Shown: one piece after another, positions 26,996 to 38,607 of the stretch | Layout of the letters: every line of letters begins with the position of its first letter | Numbering within the stretch: position 1 is the first letter of the stretch | Origin: an uncultured Flavobacteriales bacterium | GTDB taxonomy: Bacteria > Bacteroidota > Bacteroidia > Flavobacteriales > BACL11 | Assembly: GCA_905478765.1 (NCBI GenBank) | Contig: CAJQJY010000004.1 | Coordinates: 123,172-187,171 of the forward strand | Length of the DNA: 64,000 nt | Direction: 5' to 3' | Position numbers and translations under genes: made by a program | Notes under the pieces: model-generated | Told to the model about the DNA's origin: nothing | The model's database searches: none | The model's input: the letters and a program-made list of their open reading frames with translations, nothing else

Positions 26996-28327
26996 TTATC
27001 TATCAAAAGTGAGACGCATTCCTCTGCTGGCTTCATCAAATCTTCCATACTCATAGGCAATATGTCCGTTCACAAAAGTATGTGTAATTTGTGCATTAAA
27101 GGTTTCGCCTTCAAAAGGTGACCAACCACATTTATATAAAATATTGTCTTTATTTACCTCCCAAGGTTTTTCCAAATCTACCAAAACTAAATCCGCAAAA
27201 TAACCCTCGCGAATAAAGCCTCTATTTTCTACTTTAAAGCAAACTGCAGGATTATGACACATTTTTTCTACTACTTTTTCAAGGCTTATTTTTTCTTGCT
27301 TAACAAAAGCTAGCATTGCAGGCAAAGCGTGTTGTACAATTGGGCCTCCTGATGGTGCGTTAAAGTATGTGTTTGATTTTTCTTCCAAAGTATGTGGGGC
27401 ATGATCGGTTGCAATTACATCCAATTTATCATCTAGTAATGCCTGGAATAACGCATTTCTATCACTTTCTTTTTTTACAGCAGGATTCCATTTTATAAGT
27501 GTTCCCTTTTTAGCATATTGACTCTTATCAAACCAAAGGTGATGTATGCAAACCTCAGCTGTAATGTTTTTATCTTTTAGCGGAATAGAATTATCAAAAA
27601 GGTCTATTTCTTTTTCTGTTGAAAGATGAAAAACATGAAGCCTAGTATTGTACTTTTTTGCAAGCTCTACAGCCATTGAAGAAGATTTAAAACATGCTTC
27701 AGCACTTCTTATATTTGGGTGTTCGCTAATGGGTACTTCTTCTCCAAACTTCTTTTTTGCGGCAATTGTATTTTTTTGTATTGTCTTCTCATCTTCACAA
27801 TGCACTGCAATTAACATTGATGATTTAGAAAAAATTTTTTCTAGAACATTTTTGTTGTCCACTAACATATTTCCAGTTGAAGAACCCATAAATATTTTAA
27901 TTGCCGCAACTTTTTTGGGATCAGTTTTGAGTACTTCGTCTAAATTGTCATTACTGGCACCCATAAAAAAACTGTAATTAGCAATTGAAGTTTCAGCTGC
28001 AATTTGGTATTTATCTTCTAACAATTCTTGTGTTAAGGTTTGAGGATTTGTGTTTGGCATTTCCATAAATGAAGTGATTCCACCAGCAATTGCCGCTTTG
28101 CTTTCAGTGTAAATATTTGCTTTGTGTGTTAATCCTGGCTCTCTGAAATGTACTTGGTCATCAATTACGCCAGGAATTAAATGCAAACCTTCAGCATCAA
28201 TAATGTGCTCAACTTCAATGTTAATTTCAGTAGCAATTTGTTTGATTATCTTATCTTCAATCAATACATCTGCTTTGTAAATCCTTCCTTCATTTACAAG
28301 TTGTGCGTTTTTAATAAGTTTTAACAT
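26996..28327 (-). CDS. pyrC: dihydroorotase
   Basis: DDQVHFREPGLTHKA, MEMPNTNP, ATDHAPHT. Confidence 0.93.
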   Translation of the reverse strand: MLKLIKNAQLVNEGRIYKADVLIEDKIIKQIATEINIEVEHIIDAEGLHLIPGVIDDQVHFREPGLTHKANIYTESKAAIAGGITSFMEMPNTNPQTLTQELLEDKYQIAAETSIANYSFFMGASNDNLDEVLKTDPKKVAAIKIFMGSSTGNMLVDNKNVLEKIFSKSSMLIAVHCEDEKTIQKNTIAAKKKFGEEVPISEHPNIRSAEACFKSSSMAVELAKKYNTRLHVFHLSTEKEIDLFDNSIPLKDKNITAEVCIHHLWFDKSQYAKKGTLIKWNPAVKKESDRNALFQALLDDKLDVIATDHAPHTLEEKSNTYFNAPSGGPIVQHALPAMLAFVKQEKISLEKVVEKMCHNPAVCFKVENRGFIREGYFADLVLVDLEKPWEVNKDNILYKCGWSPFEGETFNAQITHTFVNGHIAYEYGRFDEASRGMRLTFDR

Positions 28328-28330
28328 TGT

Positions 28331-29062
28331 TTATCTTTTCCAGTTTCTAAAAAAACTTTTGAGTTTCATTTGGATTACCCCAATTACAGCTTCCATAAAT
28401 ATACCTCCACTCATTTTTGATGTTCCTTCAGTTCTGTCAGTAAATATTACAGGAACTTCAACAACATTAAATCCATATTTCCAGGCTTTGAATTTCATCT
28501 CAATTTGAAAGGCGTAACCTACAAAAAGGATTTTGTCAAAATTGAAGGTTTCTAAAACTTTTCGTTTATAACATTTAAATCCTGCAGTTGAATCATGTAT
28601 TGGCATTCCTGTAACAAATTTCACATATTTTGACGCAAAAAATGACATGAGTAAACGAGTCATTGGCCAATTTACAATATTTACCCCTTTTACATATCGT
28701 GAGCCAATAGATAAATCTCCACCCTCATTTGCATTTGCATTGTATAGGCGAATTAAATCATCAGGATTGTGTGAAAAATCAGCATCCATCTCAAAAATAA
28801 ATTGGTAATCTTTTTGCAATGCCCATTTGAATCCATGAATATAAGCAGTTCCTAAACCAAGTTTCCCAGTCCTCTCTTTAATGTGTAATTTCTTAGAATA
28901 ATCCTTTTGTAAAATTTTAACAATATTTGCCGTTCCATCAGGAGAACCATCATCAACAATTAAAATATGGAAAGATTTCTCTAAAGAAAAAATCTTATGA
29001 ATTATCTTTTCTATATTCTCTTTTTCGTTATATGTTGGGATGATTATTAAACTATCGGACAT
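28331..29062 (-). CDS. polyprenol monophosphomannose synthase-like GT2
   Basis: IIPTYNEKENIEKII, VDDGSPDGTA, EMDADFSHNPDDL. Confidence 0.93.
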   Translation of the reverse strand: MSDSLIIIPTYNEKENIEKIIHKIFSLEKSFHILIVDDGSPDGTANIVKILQKDYSKKLHIKERTGKLGLGTAYIHGFKWALQKDYQFIFEMDADFSHNPDDLIRLYNANANEGGDLSIGSRYVKGVNIVNWPMTRLLMSFFASKYVKFVTGMPIHDSTAGFKCYKRKVLETFNFDKILFVGYAFQIEMKFKAWKYGFNVVEVPVIFTDRTEGTSKMSGGIFMEAVIGVIQMKLKSFFRNWKR

Positions 29063-29097: not shown

Positions 29098-30993
29098 TTA
29101 TTGTACTGAATTTTTGATTTTATCTACAACTAATGGATCTAATAGCGTGCTTGTATCTCCCAAATTTTGAGTGTCTCCTTCAGCAATTTTTCTTAAAATT
29201 CTTCTCATAATTTTTCCTGATCGAGTTTTTGGCAATCCACTTACAAACTGAATTTTATCTGCTTTAGCAATAGGCCCTACATTTTTAGTTACCAAATCAT
29301 TTATTTCTTTTTTAATATCATCTTCATTTTGCAGTTTATTATGGCAAATCACATAGGCATAAACGCCATTTCCTTTAATAGGATGAGGGAAGCCAACAAC
29401 AGCTGTTTCACAAACATTGTCGTGTTCATTCATTGCACTTTCAATTTCTGCAGTTCCTAAATTATGCCCTGAAACAATTATTACATCATCTACTCTTCCC
29501 GTAATCCGATACATTCCATTTTCATCCCTTAACGCTCCATCTCCAGTAAAATATTTTTTAGGAAAAGTGGAAAAATAAGTTTCTTTAAATCTTTTATGAT
29601 CACCATAAATTGTCCGAGCTATTGAAGGCCAAGGAAATTTTATACATAATTTACCTTCATCAGAATTCCTTTCAATTTCTTCCCCTTTTTCATCTAATAA
29701 ACAAGGTTGAATTCCAGGAAGTGGAAGTGTAGCAAAAGTAGGTTTGGCTGAAGTAACTCCTGCTAAATTTGAAATCATAATTCCTCCTGTTTCTGTTTGC
29801 CACCAAGTATCTACAACAGGAGCGTTCCCTTTTCCAATTTCTTTGTCATACCAATGCCAGGCATCTTCATTTATAGGCTCTCCAACTGTACCTAGAACTT
29901 TTAATGATGACAAATCATAAGGCTTTACAAAATCCAATCCTTTCGCTTCCAAAGCTCGAATAGCAGTAGGTGCAGTATAAAAAATATTGACTTTGTTTTC
30001 CTCAATAATTTGCCAAAATCTTCCTGCATCAGGGTAAGAAGGGACTCCTTCAAACATCATTGTTGTTGCACCTGCTAAAAGCGGACCGTAGACTATATAT
30101 GAGTGCCCAGTAATCCAACCAATATCGGCAGTACACCAGTAAATATCACCTTCATTGTATTGAAAAACATTTCTAAAACTGTATTCAGTATAAATCATAT
30201 ATCCCGCCGTTGAATGCTGAATCCCTTTAGGTTTGCCTGTTGAGCCAGAAGTATATAAAATAAAGAGTGGGGATTCTGCATCCATTATTTCAATTGGACA
30301 GTTAGAAGTAACTTTTTTCATTTCATCATGCCACCAAACATCTCTACCATTTTTTATAGAAACTGTATTTTTTGTACGTTCTAAAACTATGCATTTTTTT
30401 ATTGAAGGTGTGGTTTGCATTGCCTCATCTGAAATATCTTTTAAAGGAGTGATTTTTGCACCTCTAAATCCGCCATCTGCAGTAATCAGGATATTGCAAT
30501 CTGCATCATTAATTCTGTCGGATAATGATTTTGAAGAAAATCCAGCAAATACTACTGAATGAATAGCTCCAATTCTTGCACAAGCCAAAACGGCTATTGC
30601 TAATTCAGGAACCATTGGCATATATAGGCAGATTCTATCTCCTTTTTTTCCGCCATTATTTTTTAAAACATTAGCGAATTTGCACACTTCAGCATGCAAC
30701 TCTTTGTATGAAATATTTTTATTTGCTTCTTTTGGGTTGTTTGCAACCCATTTAATTGCAGTTTGATTGCCTCTTTTTTCTAAGTGCCTATCCAGACAAT
30801 TTTCAGTAATATTTAATTTCCCTTCTAAAAACCATTTTATTTCTGGTGTTGTAAAATCCCATTGTAAGACAGTATCCCATTTTTTTTGCCATGTAAAGTT
30901 GTTTGCTTTTTCCTCCCAAAATGCCTCTGGTTTATTAATACTTTTTGCATATTCGATTTTATAATGTTCTAAAGAAGTTATTTTTTTATTCAT
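29098..30993 (-). CDS. acs: acetate-CoA ligase
   Basis: LYTSGSTGKPKGIQHSTAGY, DTWWQTETGG, GRVDDVIIVSGHNLGTAEIE, KTRSGKIMRR. Confidence 0.96.
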   Translation of the reverse strand: MNKKITSLEHYKIEYAKSINKPEAFWEEKANNFTWQKKWDTVLQWDFTTPEIKWFLEGKLNITENCLDRHLEKRGNQTAIKWVANNPKEANKNISYKELHAEVCKFANVLKNNGGKKGDRICLYMPMVPELAIAVLACARIGAIHSVVFAGFSSKSLSDRINDADCNILITADGGFRGAKITPLKDISDEAMQTTPSIKKCIVLERTKNTVSIKNGRDVWWHDEMKKVTSNCPIEIMDAESPLFILYTSGSTGKPKGIQHSTAGYMIYTEYSFRNVFQYNEGDIYWCTADIGWITGHSYIVYGPLLAGATTMMFEGVPSYPDAGRFWQIIEENKVNIFYTAPTAIRALEAKGLDFVKPYDLSSLKVLGTVGEPINEDAWHWYDKEIGKGNAPVVDTWWQTETGGIMISNLAGVTSAKPTFATLPLPGIQPCLLDEKGEEIERNSDEGKLCIKFPWPSIARTIYGDHKRFKETYFSTFPKKYFTGDGALRDENGMYRITGRVDDVIIVSGHNLGTAEIESAMNEHDNVCETAVVGFPHPIKGNGVYAYVICHNKLQNEDDIKKEINDLVTKNVGPIAKADKIQFVSGLPKTRSGKIMRRILRKIAEGDTQNLGDTSTLLDPLVVDKIKNSVQ

Positions 30994-31020: not shown

Positions 31021-31094
31021 GCAAAACAAATTACTTTTAAAAATCAATTTTTTAAATTGAATGTGTAAATTAGCACCCTAATAAAACCAAAAAT

Positions 31095-32003
31095 ATGAAA
31101 AAAATATTACTACCAATTGCTGTCATAATATCAGCAACATTAAACGCTCAAGTATGTTCAGATTTATTTATATCTGAATATGTTGAAGGTCCAGCTCAAA
31201 ATAACGGAATTGAGGTATACAATCCCACAAATGCAACAATTGATTTAGCTGGATATAGTATTAATAGGTATTCAAATGGAAACAGCTCTGGGCCTGAAGT
31301 TTGGTCTTTGACTGGCTCAATTGCAGCTGGAGATGTAATTGTAGTTGGAAATGGGCAACTTGATTCTATCGACTTAGGAACATACTGGTCTGTTCCTGTA
31401 GATCCCAATTTTTATACAATGTTAGATGCTCATTGTTCTGGTAATTATGATGATAATAATACATTTTATTTTAATGGAGATGACGCAATGACATTAGAGT
31501 ATCAAGGAAATACAGTTGATGTTTTTGGTAAAGTTGGTGAAGATCCTGGCGGCGCATGGACTGATGATGTAACTGCTGGTTACACAGATGCAAATGGAGG
31601 AACATGGTGGACTAAAAGACAAACATTAATAAGAAAACCTACTGTAAAGCAGGGAGTAACACAAAACCCTATTCTTTTCAATCCAACTCTTGAGTATGAT
31701 TCTCTTCCTGATGCAACTTATTCTAATTTAGGATCGCATGTTTGTGATTGCTCGGTAGCCACTTCAATGAATGATATAAATGATGTGTCATATGTTATGT
31801 ATCCCAATCCTACTTTAAAAGGAAATTCTGTAGCAATTAACTCAAAGAATCCGGTTAAATTAATAAAAGTTACTAATATGTTAGGCGAAACTGTGGTTTT
31901 TGACAGATTAATAAATACAACTAATTTATCCAAGGGAACTTATATAGTTAATATAAGTTTTGATAATGGCATTTTAAAAGAAAATAAATTAATAATAAAT
32001 TAA
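31095..32003 (+). CDS. lamin-tail-domain-like secreted protein with T9SS tail
   Basis: DLFISEYVEGPAQNNGIEVYNPTNATIDLAGYSINRYSNG; C-term MYPNPTLKG...LSKGTYIVNISFDNG. Confidence 0.88.
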   Translation: MKKILLPIAVIISATLNAQVCSDLFISEYVEGPAQNNGIEVYNPTNATIDLAGYSINRYSNGNSSGPEVWSLTGSIAAGDVIVVGNGQLDSIDLGTYWSVPVDPNFYTMLDAHCSGNYDDNNTFYFNGDDAMTLEYQGNTVDVFGKVGEDPGGAWTDDVTAGYTDANGGTWWTKRQTLIRKPTVKQGVTQNPILFNPTLEYDSLPDATYSNLGSHVCDCSVATSMNDINDVSYVMYPNPTLKGNSVAINSKNPVKLIKVTNMLGETVVFDRLINTTNLSKGTYIVNISFDNGILKENKLIIN

Positions 32004-32021
32004 TAATTTTAACATTAAATT

Positions 32022-32053
32022 AAAAATGCTGATGGAAACATCAGCATTTTTTT
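32022..32053 (+). terminator. intrinsic terminator hairpin with GAAA tetraloop
   Basis: Perfect 13-bp stem AAAAATGCTGATG/CATCAGCATTTTT, loop GAAA, seven-T run. Confidence 0.88.
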
Positions 32054-32063
32054 ACTCGTTAAT

Positions 32064-34880
32064 ATGAAAAAGATATATTTATTAAGTGTTTTAATAAGTC
32101 TTACTTTTAGTGTTATAGCACAAACCAACATAAGTGGAAAAGTTATTGATGCAAACACAGGGGAGGCGCTAATTGGCGCAACTATCATGTTCGGCAAGGG
32201 GCAAGGAACAGCAACAGATTTTGATGGAAACTATAGCTTCTCAATACCTACTGGAGAAAGAAGTATTAAGGTATCATATGTCGGTTATAAAGAGATTAAT
32301 AAAATTGTTACAGTTGGTATTAAATCGCCGATATCACAGACTCTAAATTTCAAGCTTAAAACTGTATTATTAAATGAAGTTCAAGTTGTTGCCGACGTTG
32401 CTAGAGATCGAGAGACACCTGTAGCGTTTTCTACTATACCAATGAAGCAGATTAATGAGGAATTAGCTTCACAAGACATCCCAATGGTACTAAATTCAAC
32501 TCCTGGCGTATATGCAACACAAAGCGGAGGAGGGGATGGAGATGCAAGAATAACTATTCGTGGTTTTAACCAGAGAAATGTGGCAGTAATGATTGATGGA
32601 GTTCCTGTAAATGATATGGAAAATGGTTGGGTGTATTGGTCTAATTGGTTTGGTTTAGATGCTGTAACATCAAATATACAGATTCAAAGAGGTTTAGGCG
32701 CTTCTAAAATTGCAATACCATCTGTCGGAGGAACAATGAATATTCTTACAAAAGGTACTGGTAATAAAGCTGGGGGCGTTGTTAAACAGTCTATCGGTAG
32801 TTTTGGAAAACTTAGAACATCAGTGGGTTATAACTCAGGTAGAATGGAAAATGGCTGGGGATTTACCTTAGCAGGTTCATATAAAACAGGAAATGGTTTT
32901 GTTGATGAGACTTGGAGTGAAGGATTTTTCTATTATGCGAAAGTTCAGAAAGAAATAGGAAATCATATAATTAGTTTTTCTGCAATGGGAGCTCCACAGA
33001 AACATGGCCAGAGATCATATAAAAGCGATATAGCCACTTATGATACTACATTTGCACGTTCACTTGGAGACACTTCTGATTTCACTGGACGTATAGTAAA
33101 TAAAGGTATTAATTACAATAAACATTGGGGATTTTTAGACAGATGGACAATTAATTCAAATGGCGATACTTTGCATAATAGAGAGACATTAAATACTAAA
33201 CAGAATTATTATCATAAGCCACAATTTTCGTTAAGAGATTTTTGGACTGTTAATGATAAATTTTATATATCAAATATATTATATGCTTCTATTGGTAATG
33301 GTGGAGGTACAGGATTAAGTGGAAATACAAATAATTACGATGCAATTGGACAATATAATCTTCAAGAAGCATACAACTCTAATTTAAATAGTATTGATGC
33401 CTTGTATTCTGCTTCAGAAAATAAAGCAGGAACTTATTTAAGAAGTTCAATTAATAACCATTATTGGTATGGAGGACTTTCTAAGTTAAATTATCAACTT
33501 ACGGACAAGACATCTTTATCTTCTGGATTAGATATGCGATATTATAAAGGGGAACACTATAGAGAGGTGTATGATTTGCTAGGGGCAGATTATGCTATCG
33601 ACGCTTCAAATAAGTTACAAAGTTCTGAGTTAAAAAGAGTTGGAGATAAGGTAGGATATAACAATGATGGAATTGTTAAGTGGAGCGGTGTTTTCTCACA
33701 GATGGAATATAGTAACGGAATGCTAAGTGCTTTTTTTAATATATCTGCCTCAAATTCAGCTTATAAAAGAATTGATTATTTTCGCAAAAAGGATTTAGTT
33801 TTAGCTGATACTACTTATTTTGAGGCATTAGGAACATCAGTTGCTACTGAGTTAGAATTAGATGAAAATGGCAACTTAATTGGAGCAAATAAAACTATGG
33901 TACTTGATACTGTTTATTATAATGGAGTGGCATATACAATGAATTCTCCAGAAGCTAAATTCGCAGAGACTAATTGGAAATGGATAAGAGGATACACTAT
34001 AAAATCTGGGGCAAATTTTAATTTAGATGAATATAATAATGTCTTTATTAACTTAGGTTATATCTCAAAAGCTCCACGATTTAATAATGTTTATTATTAT
34101 GACAATAGCTTATTTAGAGATATTAAAAATGAGATTGTTCAAGCTTTAGAAGGGGGCTACTCATATAGATCGACTAAATTTTCAGCTAACTTAAATGGAT
34201 ATTTTACATTATGGCAAAATAAACCCTCAAATGGCGGAGTTACAGTTTTAGTAGATGATGTATCATACAGAGCAAATATAAATGGAATGGATGCTTTGCA
34301 CAAGGGAATCGAGATGGATTTTTCATATAAGATTTTATCTAATCTGGGATTTGAAGGACTTGTTTCACTAGGAGATTGGAAGTGGATGTCATCTGATACA
34401 GTACGATTTTTAGATGATAATAATAACCCAATTACTGATGATTTTGGTAAAGAAATCATTGCAAGTTTTGATGCTGAAGGTGTCCACGTTGGTGATGCTG
34501 CTCAAACACAGTTTGGTTTTAGTTTTAGATACGAACCCTCATATAATTCGTATATAAAATTTAGATCAACTTATTTTGATAATTATTATGCAGACTTTGA
34601 TCCTTTATCATTAAATGGTGAAAATGCAGCAAGAGAAAGTTGGAAAATCCCATCATATAATTTAATTGATTTACATGCCGGATACAAATTCAAGATTTCA
34701 GAAAAAACTAAAATGGATATTAAATTAAGTATTTTAAATCTGTTTGATGAGATTTATATATCAGATGCACAAAATAATGACCCATATAATGCCAGCTATC
34801 AAGATTTTGATGCCAAATCGGCCGGAGTTTTTTTTGGCTTAGGCAGAAGGTTTAGTTTATCCGCAAGATTCAATTTTTAA
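32064..34880 (+). CDS. TonB-dependent receptor with carboxypeptidase-regulatory-like N-terminal domain
   Basis: NISGKVIDANTGEALIGATI, plug IRGFNQRNVAVMIDGVPVND, C-terminal aromatic FNF. Confidence 0.96.
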   Translation: MKKIYLLSVLISLTFSVIAQTNISGKVIDANTGEALIGATIMFGKGQGTATDFDGNYSFSIPTGERSIKVSYVGYKEINKIVTVGIKSPISQTLNFKLKTVLLNEVQVVADVARDRETPVAFSTIPMKQINEELASQDIPMVLNSTPGVYATQSGGGDGDARITIRGFNQRNVAVMIDGVPVNDMENGWVYWSNWFGLDAVTSNIQIQRGLGASKIAIPSVGGTMNILTKGTGNKAGGVVKQSIGSFGKLRTSVGYNSGRMENGWGFTLAGSYKTGNGFVDETWSEGFFYYAKVQKEIGNHIISFSAMGAPQKHGQRSYKSDIATYDTTFARSLGDTSDFTGRIVNKGINYNKHWGFLDRWTINSNGDTLHNRETLNTKQNYYHKPQFSLRDFWTVNDKFYISNILYASIGNGGGTGLSGNTNNYDAIGQYNLQEAYNSNLNSIDALYSASENKAGTYLRSSINNHYWYGGLSKLNYQLTDKTSLSSGLDMRYYKGEHYREVYDLLGADYAIDASNKLQSSELKRVGDKVGYNNDGIVKWSGVFSQMEYSNGMLSAFFNISASNSAYKRIDYFRKKDLVLADTTYFEALGTSVATELELDENGNLIGANKTMVLDTVYYNGVAYTMNSPEAKFAETNWKWIRGYTIKSGANFNLDEYNNVFINLGYISKAPRFNNVYYYDNSLFRDIKNEIVQALEGGYSYRSTKFSANLNGYFTLWQNKPSNGGVTVLVDDVSYRANINGMDALHKGIEMDFSYKILSNLGFEGLVSLGDWKWMSSDTVRFLDDNNNPITDDFGKEIIASFDAEGVHVGDAAQTQFGFSFRYEPSYNSYIKFRSTYFDNYYADFDPLSLNGENAARESWKIPSYNLIDLHAGYKFKISEKTKMDIKLSILNLFDEIYISDAQNNDPYNASYQDFDAKSAGVFFGLGRRFSLSARFNF

Positions 34881-34900
34881 CTAATTAAAATATCAATAAA

Positions 34901-37024
34901 ATGAAAAAGACAACAACATTTATTTTTGCATCTTTACTAAGTATAATAGGATTTGCACAAGATATTGCGACTGCAAGAGCTCAAGGTGTTGGTGCAACTG
35001 TAACTATTACAGGAACAGCAACTAATGGAGATGAACTAGGCCCAATTAGATATATTGAAGATGCTACTGCTGGTATGGCAATTTATGATCCTGGAGTAAT
35101 GGGAGCTGTTTTAAGAGGCGATGAGGTCACTGTAACTGGTGTTTTAGTTGATTATAATGGTTTGATGGAAATGCAGCCTGTTAATTCAAATTCAGTTAAT
35201 TCATCATCAAACTCTGTTTTACCTCAATTGATAACACCTTTGCAAATAGGAGAAGATACAGAGTCAGAATTAATACAGATAGATAATGTTATTTTTAATA
35301 GTGGAGGATCTTTATTTATTGTTGGAACTCATGATTTTGAATCAAATGGAGAAACAGGTAAAATTTACATTAAAGCTGGTAGTCCATTGGAGAATTCAAT
35401 GATTCCTATGGGAGCAGTTACGCTGATTGGCATATGTTCACAATATACATTTATGGTACCGGCAAATGATGGGTATCAGATTTTACCAAGAGACAGTGCC
35501 GATATTATTCCAACAGGAGCATTATTATTTACTTCTGCTGTTACTCAATCAAATATTACTACTACAAGCTTTGATTTAAATTGGACAGTTTCTGATTCTG
35601 CTTCAACAAATTGTAATTTTGGGATAACTCCAGCTTTTACAAACGTTATTAACGGCAGTGGCAATACAACTACACATACTATTACTATTACAGGACTCAC
35701 TCCTGCAACTTTTTATTATGTTGAGTGCTATTCGGTAAGTGGTAGTGATACAGCCTTTTCAACAGTTGGCTTATATTCAACCGCTTCTAATTCTAGTGGA
35801 ATTATACGGCCTTATTTTAATCATTCAGTTGATAATTCTTTTTCAAATGGAGTTGATGCGCAAAATATTATGACTTCTTTTAATGACACGATTAAAGCAT
35901 ATATGGATCTTGCACAGAGTACTTTAGATATTTGCGTTTATAATGCCTCTGATGCGACTATTGCTACTGCTATAAATGATGCGTACAATAGAGGTGTTTC
36001 TGTCAGATATATAGCTGATGATGATGTAGTGAACTCAATGCTTTCTTCATTAGATCCTAATATCCCTATTCTATATCGAGACCCTAGTCCTGCAGGTATT
36101 ATGCATAATAAGTTTATTATTATTGATGCAAATACAACTAATAATTCCTGGATTATGGGGGGGTCTACAAACTGGACAAATCCTTCTAATTTATTTAATG
36201 ATTATAATAATTTGATCTTTGTACAGGATGAGGCTGTAGCAAAAGCATATACTTTAGAATTTGAAGAGATGTGGGGAGGTGTTTTCGGACATAATAAGTC
36301 TGATAATACGCCACATAATTTTATTGTCGGAGGATCTGAAGTAGAGGTATATTTTTCACCTTCAGATCAAACAACCACTCAAATAAATAATTTAATTGAG
36401 AATGTTGATTATTCTTTAGAATTTGGACTGCTAAGTTTTACTCGAGATGATTTAGCCCAAACAATAATTGAGAAAAATGCAGAATTTGGTGTTACTGCTA
36501 GAGGGATTATTGAAGATCAAAACTCTACAGGAGGGGAATTTGCGAACCTCCAGTCTAATGGAGTTAATATGCGATCACATATGGGAATTTCTCATTCATT
36601 TCATCATAAGTATGCAATTGCTGATGCTGATATTTTGGGATCAGACCCTACAGTTCTTACTGGATCTCATAATTGGAGCAGTAATGCTGAAAATAATTCT
36701 GATGAAAATACATTGATAATTCATGATGCAACAATTGCAAATATCTATTTGCAGGAATTTGAAAAAAGATGGGGTGAATTAGGAACTCCAACTGCTATTG
36801 ATGAGTTGATAGATATTGAACTTTCAGTTTTTCCTAATCCAACTGCAGGTAAAGTCACTGTTAAAAGTGATTTAGAGATTTCTCAAATTTACTTATATGC
36901 TATTGACGGGAAATTAATCTCTGTAAATAAAAAATCAGAAATTGAAATATATACAAAAGGAACTTACTTTTTAAAGATTTTCACAGTAAAAGGTAGTACT
37001 GTAAGAAAGATAGTTGTAGAGTAA
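34901..37024 (+). CDS. secreted protein: OB-fold-like domain, FN3-like domain, two PLD/HKD motifs, T9SS tail
   Basis: HNKFIIIDANTTNNSWIMGGSTNWT and HHKYAIADADILGSDPTVLTGSHNWSSNA; FPNPTAGKV...KIVVE tail. Confidence 0.9.
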   Translation: MKKTTTFIFASLLSIIGFAQDIATARAQGVGATVTITGTATNGDELGPIRYIEDATAGMAIYDPGVMGAVLRGDEVTVTGVLVDYNGLMEMQPVNSNSVNSSSNSVLPQLITPLQIGEDTESELIQIDNVIFNSGGSLFIVGTHDFESNGETGKIYIKAGSPLENSMIPMGAVTLIGICSQYTFMVPANDGYQILPRDSADIIPTGALLFTSAVTQSNITTTSFDLNWTVSDSASTNCNFGITPAFTNVINGSGNTTTHTITITGLTPATFYYVECYSVSGSDTAFSTVGLYSTASNSSGIIRPYFNHSVDNSFSNGVDAQNIMTSFNDTIKAYMDLAQSTLDICVYNASDATIATAINDAYNRGVSVRYIADDDVVNSMLSSLDPNIPILYRDPSPAGIMHNKFIIIDANTTNNSWIMGGSTNWTNPSNLFNDYNNLIFVQDEAVAKAYTLEFEEMWGGVFGHNKSDNTPHNFIVGGSEVEVYFSPSDQTTTQINNLIENVDYSLEFGLLSFTRDDLAQTIIEKNAEFGVTARGIIEDQNSTGGEFANLQSNGVNMRSHMGISHSFHHKYAIADADILGSDPTVLTGSHNWSSNAENNSDENTLIIHDATIANIYLQEFEKRWGELGTPTAIDELIDIELSVFPNPTAGKVTVKSDLEISQIYLYAIDGKLISVNKKSEIEIYTKGTYFLKIFTVKGSTVRKIVVE

Positions 37025-37179: not shown

Positions 37180-37226
37180 CTACTATATAATTATTAATTC
37201 GCTAAATGTGTGAAAATTAAAGTAAT

Positions 37227-37256
37227 AAAAAGCCCACTTAATTAAGTGGGCTTTTT
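37227..37256. terminator. bidirectional terminator palindrome
   Basis: AAAAAGCCCACTTAATTAAGTGGGCTTTTT perfect 30-nt palindrome. Confidence 0.88.
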
Positions 37257-37272
37257 ACATTATTGTTTAAGA

Positions 37273-38607
37273 TTACATTTTAAATGTTTCCATAAATTTT
37301 GTAGTATAATTTCCAGTAATAAAATCTTTATCTTTCATTAATTTTTGATGAAAAGGAATGGTAGTTTTAATTCCTTCAATAATGAATTCATCTAAAGCTC
37401 TAACCATTTTTGCAATTGCTTCTTCTCTTGTTTGTGCTACAGTTATTACCTTAGCTATCATAGAATCATAAAATGGTGGAATCATATAATTTGCATATAC
37501 ATGAGTATCAATTCTAATTCCATGTCCACCAGGAGCATGAAAATTAGTAATCATTCCGGGGCAAGGTCTGAAATCATTTTCAGGGTCTTCAGCATTTATC
37601 CTACACTCAATTGCATGCAATTGAGGGTCATAATTTTCTCCTGAAATTTTAATCCCAGCTGCTACTTTAATTTGCTCACGAATTAAATCATAATCAACAA
37701 CTTCTTCAGTAATCGGATGTTCTACTTGAATACGAGTATTCATTTCCATAAAGAAGAATTTTCTGTGTTTATCTACAAGAAATTCTACTGTTCCTACTCC
37801 CTCATATTTTACAGCTTCAGCAGCTTTAATAGCAGCAACACCCATTTCTTTTCTTAACTTATTAGTCATGAATGGAGAAGGTGTTTCTTCAGCTAATTTT
37901 TGATGTCTTCTTTGAATAGAACAATCTCTTTCTGATAAGTGAGCAGCTTTACCAGTGTGATCTCCAATAATTTGAATTTCAATATGCCTTGGGTCCTCAA
38001 TGAATTTTTCCATATACATGCCATCATTTCCAAATGCAGCTTTTGACTCTTGTCTTGCACTACTCCAAGCATCTTCCAAACTTTCTGCTTCCCAAACTAA
38101 TCTCATTCCTTTTCCACCACCACCAGCTGTTGCTTTTAGCATTACAGGGTATCCTACCTCAACAGCTAGTTTTTTACAAGCGTTAAAATCGGCAATAATA
38201 CCTACTGAACCAGGAATTGTAGGTACTCCTGCTTTTTTCATTGTTTCCTTTGCATTAGCTTTATCTCCCATTCCGTCAATCATGTCAGGCGAAGCGCCAA
38301 TAAACTTAATATCGTTTTCGTTACAGATTTTTGAGAAATTTGAGTTTTCAGCTAAAAACCCATAACCAGGATGGATAGCATCAGCATTTGTAATTTCAGC
38401 AGCAGCTATAATATTAGGAATCTTTAGGTAAGATTCTGAACTTGCAGCAGGACCAATACAAACAGCTTCATCAGCAAAACGAACATGTAAACTGTCTTTA
38501 TCAGCAGTTGAGTATACGGCAACTGTTTTTATCCCCATCTCTTTACAAGTACGGATAATTCTAAGTGCAATTTCACCTCTATTTGCTATTAGGATTTTCT
38601 TAAACAT
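37273..38607 (-). CDS. accC: acetyl-CoA carboxylase biotin carboxylase subunit
   Basis: [56 protein letters not shown]. Confidence 0.98.

Follow-up and report, generated by a model that had tools for sequence, protein, structure and literature searches.

A candidate Bacteroidota cassette for the use of extracellular nucleic acid, combining a lamin-tail protein and a TonB-dependent receptor with either of two predicted nucleases

The window analysed here, a stretch of 64,000 nucleotides from a small marine bacterium, an uncultured member of Flavobacteriales, contains a block of three genes which we interpret as a cell-surface system that would allow use of nucleic acid from outside the cell, a reading to which, on sequence evidence, we give a probability of about 0.74. 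The predicted products are a protein with a lamin-tail domain (LTD), a TonB-dependent receptor (TBDT) and a putative nuclease carrying two HKD motifs. As judged by comparing related genomes, the conserved unit is an LTD gene, a receptor gene and a nuclease gene from either of two unrelated families, and it extends widely across the phylum Bacteroidota.

The three-gene block and its products

Open reading frames were found exactly where a previous sequence-only reading had placed its three co-directional genes (31095-37024, forward strand; Table 1). The block is set between conserved housekeeping genes, with intergenic gaps of 60 bp between the LTD and receptor genes and 20 bp between the receptor and HKD genes. 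The promoter-like element in front of the LTD gene resembles the Bacteroidota -7 box, TAnnTTTG, and in most relatives of the family close variants of GTAAATTAGC lie about as far from the LTD start. The count of sigma-70 promoters equalled the shuffled background, and an Rfam scan found only tRNA. The source genome measures 1.61 Mb and is 98.6% complete. In Flavobacteriales the cassette is adjoined by a GT2-dihydroorotase (pyrC) pair, which remains close to it in several families and also lies beside it in several Bacteroidales loci (L066, L072, L075 and L078); this proximity may reflect either an ancient gene order or a functional connection with the supply of pyrimidines.

Table 1. Coordinates of the cassette, its parts and its neighbours in the window
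Feature	Position	Strand	Remarks
GT2-pyrC pair	26996..29062		adjoins the cassette
Acetyl-CoA synthetase gene	29098..30993	-	divergent upstream neighbour
Promoter-like element GTGTAAATTAGC	31063..31074	+	immediately 5' of the LTD gene; putative
LTD gene	31095..32003	+	302 aa; ORF coordinates confirmed
LTD protein domains			signal peptide; lamin-tail Ig-like, residues 19-146; T9SS sorting tail, residues 235-301
TonB-dependent receptor gene	32064..34880	+	938 aa; ORF coordinates confirmed
OB/DUF5689-FN3-HKD-HKD-T9SS tail gene	34901..37024	+	707 aa; predicted secreted or surface nuclease
N-terminal OB-like (DUF5689-type) domain	34964..35512	+	41% identity, E 4e-38, to the N-terminus of an Endonuclease I protein
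First HKD motif, HxKx4D...GSTNW	36104..36172	+	residues 402-424; HNKFIIID...GSTNW
Second HKD motif, HxKx4D...GSHNW	36602..36676	+	residues 568-592; HHKYAIAD...GSHNW
T9SS sorting domain of the HKD protein	36827..37018	+	residues 643-706; Pfam
Two-way terminator-like hairpin	37225..37258	.	between operon end and convergent accC
accC	37273..38607	-	convergent downstream neighbour

In the LTD protein, Pfam recognised the LTD domain (PF00932, 7e-15) and the Por_Secre_tail (PF18962), and the member alignment carried both in 45 of 45 homologues. A fold search with its model (pLDDT 90.0) returned mainly lamin-tail and T9SS-tail folds, with weak E-values, and no likeness to SusD. The receptor has the architecture of its class, with a CarboxypepD_reg-like N domain (CarbopepD_reg_2, PF13715, 2.7e-19), a TonB plug (PF07715, 4.8e-14) and a beta-barrel. 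No SusD-family match was detected among the genes neighbouring the receptor, where the LTD protein is found instead; the pair is not of the SusCD type, and the description of the receptor as SusD-less was correct. Since solved structures include no close relative of this receptor, the distant ones covering its N-terminal part only, structural comparison does not disclose what it carries. Two of the aligned receptor genes contain in-frame stops (G007:C4:325560-328220 and G042:C16:31628-34426), and are either broken genes or assembly errors.

The type IX secretion (T9SS) tails that had been proposed for the outer two proteins both score above the cut-off for the sorting domain (PF18962/TIGR04183), and the genome encodes the translocon protein SprA (2e-176). 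The product of the third gene contains PLDc_2 in two copies (2.9e-35), together with fn3 and Por_Secre_tail, and PLDc_2 is present in 50 of its 50 homologues by Pfam on the member alignment. The two HxKx4D motifs, forming one pseudo-dimer, place it in the HKD (phospholipase D-like) superfamily. Both motifs are complete, as the sequence-only reading had it, and across the 50 homologues H402, K404 and D409 of the first motif and H568, K570, D575, N591 and W592 of the second are invariant. An OB-like domain had also been suspected at the N-terminus. The window's own protein gave no match to such families; DUF5689 was matched in 25 of the 50 homologues and the OB-fold family PF01336 in 5, and the same module also fronts a second nuclease family, as described below.

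Co-conservation of the block and exchange of the nuclease gene

A lack of co-conservation of the three genes was one of the conditions named as refuting the sequence-only reading. In a first survey of 60 relatives, most of the family was found to carry the block, and the loci that were read out had it at the same site; it also occurred in a further two families of the order (f9 and f14), with different downstream genes. In a wider survey, GTDB genomes were scanned with the receptor alignment and the 80 best-scoring loci were retained, from Flavobacteriales, Bacteroidales, Saprospiraceae, Chitinophaga-labelled metagenome assemblies and others; as these are the best-scoring loci, the survey describes the receptor clade rather than all Bacteroidota. 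Neighbouring genes were classed by locally built profiles, and their domains were confirmed with Pfam on member alignments.

In 62 of the loci there is enough sequence on each side of the receptor to judge its neighbours; among these, an LTD gene lies upstream of the receptor in 60 and a T9SS nuclease gene belongs to the block in 61, so that the linkage was borne out. The nuclease slot holds an HKD gene only in 31 loci, an Endonuclease I gene only in 28, both in two and neither in one (L062). The LTD-receptor-nuclease unit is kept, but the HKD type as such occurs in only about half of the loci. In L062 (8889-9779), the gene after the clade receptor encodes an OB-T9SS protein that has no catalytic domain, and the LTD gene is absent. 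In L069, L116 and L077, both nuclease types, or up to three consecutive Endonuclease I genes, stand behind one receptor.

As a control, we inspected 12 receptors from outside the clade, eleven at about 34-49% identity and one from a phylum-wide search; none of them had an LTD or nuclease neighbour, two of the 12 having little flanking sequence. The difference in linkage between clade and out-of-clade receptors corresponds to a Fisher p of 6e-13, relatedness being ignored. The block is far beyond chance, because it recurs across many families and is absent around the out-of-clade receptors. The phylum-wide search, in which the best four candidates per genome were scored, found it in at least 3 of 197 genomes besides that of the window, a lower bound that is not a prevalence figure. 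A more distant receptor, excluded from the control count, adjoins a 1168-aa LTD-LTD-OB-OB T9SS protein without a recognised nuclease domain (L045:6614-13097), possibly another version of the LTD-receptor pairing.

No Endonuclease I gene was found in the window's genome. In seven genomes, one of them from the window's genus (G001, and G014, G028, G018, G042, G055 and G048), the LTD and receptor genes are kept and the HKD gene is absent. The next gene encodes a T9SS Endonuclease I (PF04231, 3.7e-26 to 9.2e-42) in all six of these that were run through Pfam; in G028 (L033), a 713-aa gene in the nuclease slot falls in the Endonuclease I class by a local profile made from such proteins. The Endonuclease_1 domain was found in 38 of 38 homologues by Pfam on the member alignment, with R466-E467-H468 and N501 invariant in all of them. 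Endonuclease I and HKD proteins are non-homologous, and both come from families that contain nucleases. Aligned over 204 aa, the OB domain of the window's protein and the N-terminal part of the Brumimicrobium oceani Endonuclease I protein (L094) share 41% of their residues; on this identity, one OB module carries two unrelated catalytic heads.

Comparison of congeners shows, at the level of sequence, that the exchange takes place in situ. Between the window and G001 the flanks are 87-97% identical, whereas the LTD proteins share 48% and the receptors 75%, and the third genes are unrelated. Between L105 and L131 the flanks are 81-96% identical and LTD, receptor and nuclease only 42-45%. On the receptor tree (FastTree, 103 rows), the nuclease type changes at least 12 times, an approximate number, as the method is a quick one and some forks are weak. 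One LTD-receptor lineage carries an HKD gene in L044 and an Endonuclease I gene in L032 and L034, the LTD proteins being 66-68% and the receptors 78% identical. Among the sequences compared, the LTD protein of G013 (L044) is closest to those of Endonuclease-type cassettes from other genera, and its receptor is as close to Endonuclease-type receptors as to any HKD-type receptor, but the enzyme is of the HKD type. The idea that nuclease type dictates receptor type was discarded, since a single LTD-receptor lineage carries either nuclease. From these comparisons, either enzyme appears able to serve the receptor, in keeping with a product common to both, namely nucleic-acid fragments.

Within one genus, LTD and receptor diverge far faster than the flanks (window versus L035 and L044; L105 versus L131), as if the surface module were replaced or under diversifying pressure; the receptors are possible phage or toxin targets. 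L105 (CP034120.1:2706849-2721575) is labelled as part of the complete genome of 'Glaciecola amylolytica', and the region is Crocinitomicaceae-like, with T9SS proteins and with flanking genes 80-96% identical to those of the Flavobacteriales assembly UBA5869 (L131). This could be read as horizontal transfer into Gammaproteobacteria, a reading that we rejected because the genome is probably one of Bacteroidota under a wrong label.

Predicted mechanism, partner genes and alternative explanations

In ten loci (L093, L094, L100, L102, L105, L108, L113, L118, L126 and L131), two further genes continue the operon, one for a lipoprotein that carries the C-domain of 5'-nucleotidases (PF02872), the other for a metallophosphoesterase whose leader is twin-arginine-like; the pair was identified with Pfam in L094, and BLAST grouped the other nine loci with it. 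L094 comes from a cultured strain, Brumimicrobium oceani C305, and has the arrangement LTD-TBDT-Endonuclease I-nucleotidase. In the window's genome, a similarly composed pair lies on a different contig, C6, apart from the operon (L132:1294-2019 and 2009-2947); this genome also encodes a NupC-type nucleoside carrier. The C-domain lipoprotein is supporting rather than diagnostic, because it is common in the order and occurs also in some genomes without the cassette.

According to the mechanism that we propose, the HKD protein would be exported by the type IX system and kept on or near the surface, where its OB/DUF5689 domain would bind polynucleotide and the paired HKD active site would cut it. 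The receptor would take the cleavage products, as oligonucleotides or nucleotides, through to the periplasm, and import of nucleic-acid products is indeed its probable function. The LTD protein, as a T9SS surface protein, would be the dedicated partner of the receptor and may capture substrate at the position of the SusD lid of Sus systems, a role to which we give even odds. In the periplasm, the split 5'-nucleotidase, formed by the lipoprotein C-domain and the Tat-type metallophosphoesterase, would free phosphate and nucleosides, and the NupC-type carrier could import the latter. The substrate may be DNA or RNA, and phosphate may be the main benefit. The sequence-only reading had already coupled extracellular polynucleotide cleavage to TonB import, and this coupling gains strong support from the co-conservation, from the exchange with Endonuclease I in the slot and from the 5'-nucleotidase joined in relatives.

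One alternative concerns the enzyme, which could be a secreted phospholipase D, the receptor importing head groups or lipid fragments. Phospholipases are among the HKD families, and in the model of the HKD protein (pLDDT 86.9) the best fold match of the two-HKD region is a phospholipase D (7e0m, 8e-18). This match is only slightly ahead of the 5' exonuclease PLD3 (9e-17), so that the fold alone does not decide the substrate, and we discarded the fold search as a discriminator because the two are about equal. The single HKD domains match Zucchini, NucT and Nuc in fold, and the sequence matches in NCBIfam and PDB are the same three, against the phospholipase explanation. Moreover, about half of the relatives have Endonuclease I in the same slot, beside the same LTD and receptor, and the OB/DUF5689 domain is common to both enzymes. 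We regard a phospholipase as very unlikely; given the co-conservation, the Endonuclease I exchange and the 5'-nucleotidase linkage in relatives, the product of the third gene is very probably a nuclease.

A nuclease may nonetheless serve other ends. It could clear extracellular DNA of biofilm, phage or competitor origin, next to a receptor whose own cargo would be something else, for instance a vitamin or a metal complex; Bacteroidota secreted DNases can act on biofilm and trap DNA, as do NucA and NucD of Prevotella intermedia (PMC12568770). Receptor, LTD and nuclease, however, are kept as a unit in 60 of 62 loci, in more than one order, the three genes diverge jointly in place while the flanks stay similar (L105 versus L131), and the joined 5'-nucleotidase points to nutrition, so that mere clearing is improbable, if somewhat less so than a phospholipase. 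Still less credible is an uptake of DNA as genetic material, in natural transformation, rather than as food. It is suggested by Riemerella anatipestifer, in which, according to the accessible part of the report (PMC8459023), an outer-membrane barrel protein and a DUF5689 protein, the domain type found in the family of our HKD protein, are both essential for transformation. That part of the report describes no nuclease partner for the pair, and the likeness is one of description alone; a near-constant secreted nuclease would destroy transforming DNA, and in relatives the cassette is joined by a 5'-nucleotidase. Nutritional use of extracellular nucleic acid is the explanation that we retain.

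Relation to known systems and significance

The cassette resembles SusCD-type polysaccharide utilisation loci in that one operon joins a TonB receptor, bearing a CarboxypepD_reg-like N domain, to a secreted depolymerase and to a partner protein for surface binding. It differs from them in lacking SusD, in placing an LTD protein with a T9SS tail in the partner position, and in its depolymerase, a T9SS-exported predicted nuclease whose substrate would be polynucleotide. Extracellular nucleases of the ExeM/NucH type likewise associate LTD and OB-like domains with a secreted nuclease, in one chain (LTD + OB + nuclease), and the LTD protein matches the N-terminus of ExeM. In the cassette, by contrast, LTD and nuclease are encoded by separate genes with a TonB receptor between them and the exo/endo-phosphatase domain is absent; scores for the full families were far below cut-off (ExeM, 72.9 bits against 1300; ExeM_NucH, 14.8 against 300). 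The catalytic domains are those of Endonuclease I (PF04231) and of the HKD nucleases Nuc, NucT, Zucchini and PLD3, with the motif residues conserved; what sets the cassette enzymes apart is that they are cargo of the T9SS, that they often have an OB/DUF5689 module and that they are exchangeable in one operon slot.

Loci for DNA degradation in Candidatus Izemoplasma (Wasmund 2021, PMC8289736) also set nuclease, LTD and nucleic-acid-binding domains beside probable nucleoside transporters, but they belong to Firmicutes/Tenericutes, and TonB is unmentioned in the main text of that paper. In the Riemerella pair (RA0C_RS04915/RA0C_RS04920), DNA uptake depends on two proteins, an outer-membrane barrel that has a carboxypeptidase-regulatory-like domain and a protein of the DUF5689 type; the pair differs in serving transformation and, in the accessible part of the report, in having no nuclease or LTD partner (PMC8459023). 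Bacteroidota are included among the major degraders of sediment DNA (PMC8289736), and Endonuclease-type secreted nucleases have been noted in Bacteroidota of sludge (PMC11495043).

A search of open-licence papers returned no description of this gene combination, and no paper in that literature was found to bring together lamin tail domain and TonB-dependent. We judge the cassette to be undescribed, and its kind, a TonB nutrient-uptake locus, to be already known. In its broadest form, our proposal is of a polynucleotide utilisation found throughout Bacteroidota, with an oligonucleotide-importing TBDT clade, a SusD-like LTD partner, interchangeable secreted nucleases and a split periplasmic 5'-nucleotidase; this wider picture we favour by a small measure.

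Large amounts of phosphorus, nitrogen and carbon reside in extracellular DNA and RNA, and the open-licence literature searched gives no explanation of how nucleic-acid pieces pass the outer membrane of Bacteroidota. The cassette provides a marker gene and a transporter that can be put to the test, and also a natural experiment in which one receptor lineage is combined with two unrelated nucleases, and it suggests LTD proteins as receptor partners. If the proposal is true, this would be, as far as the literature searched shows, the first family of TonB-dependent receptors assigned to nucleic-acid fragments.
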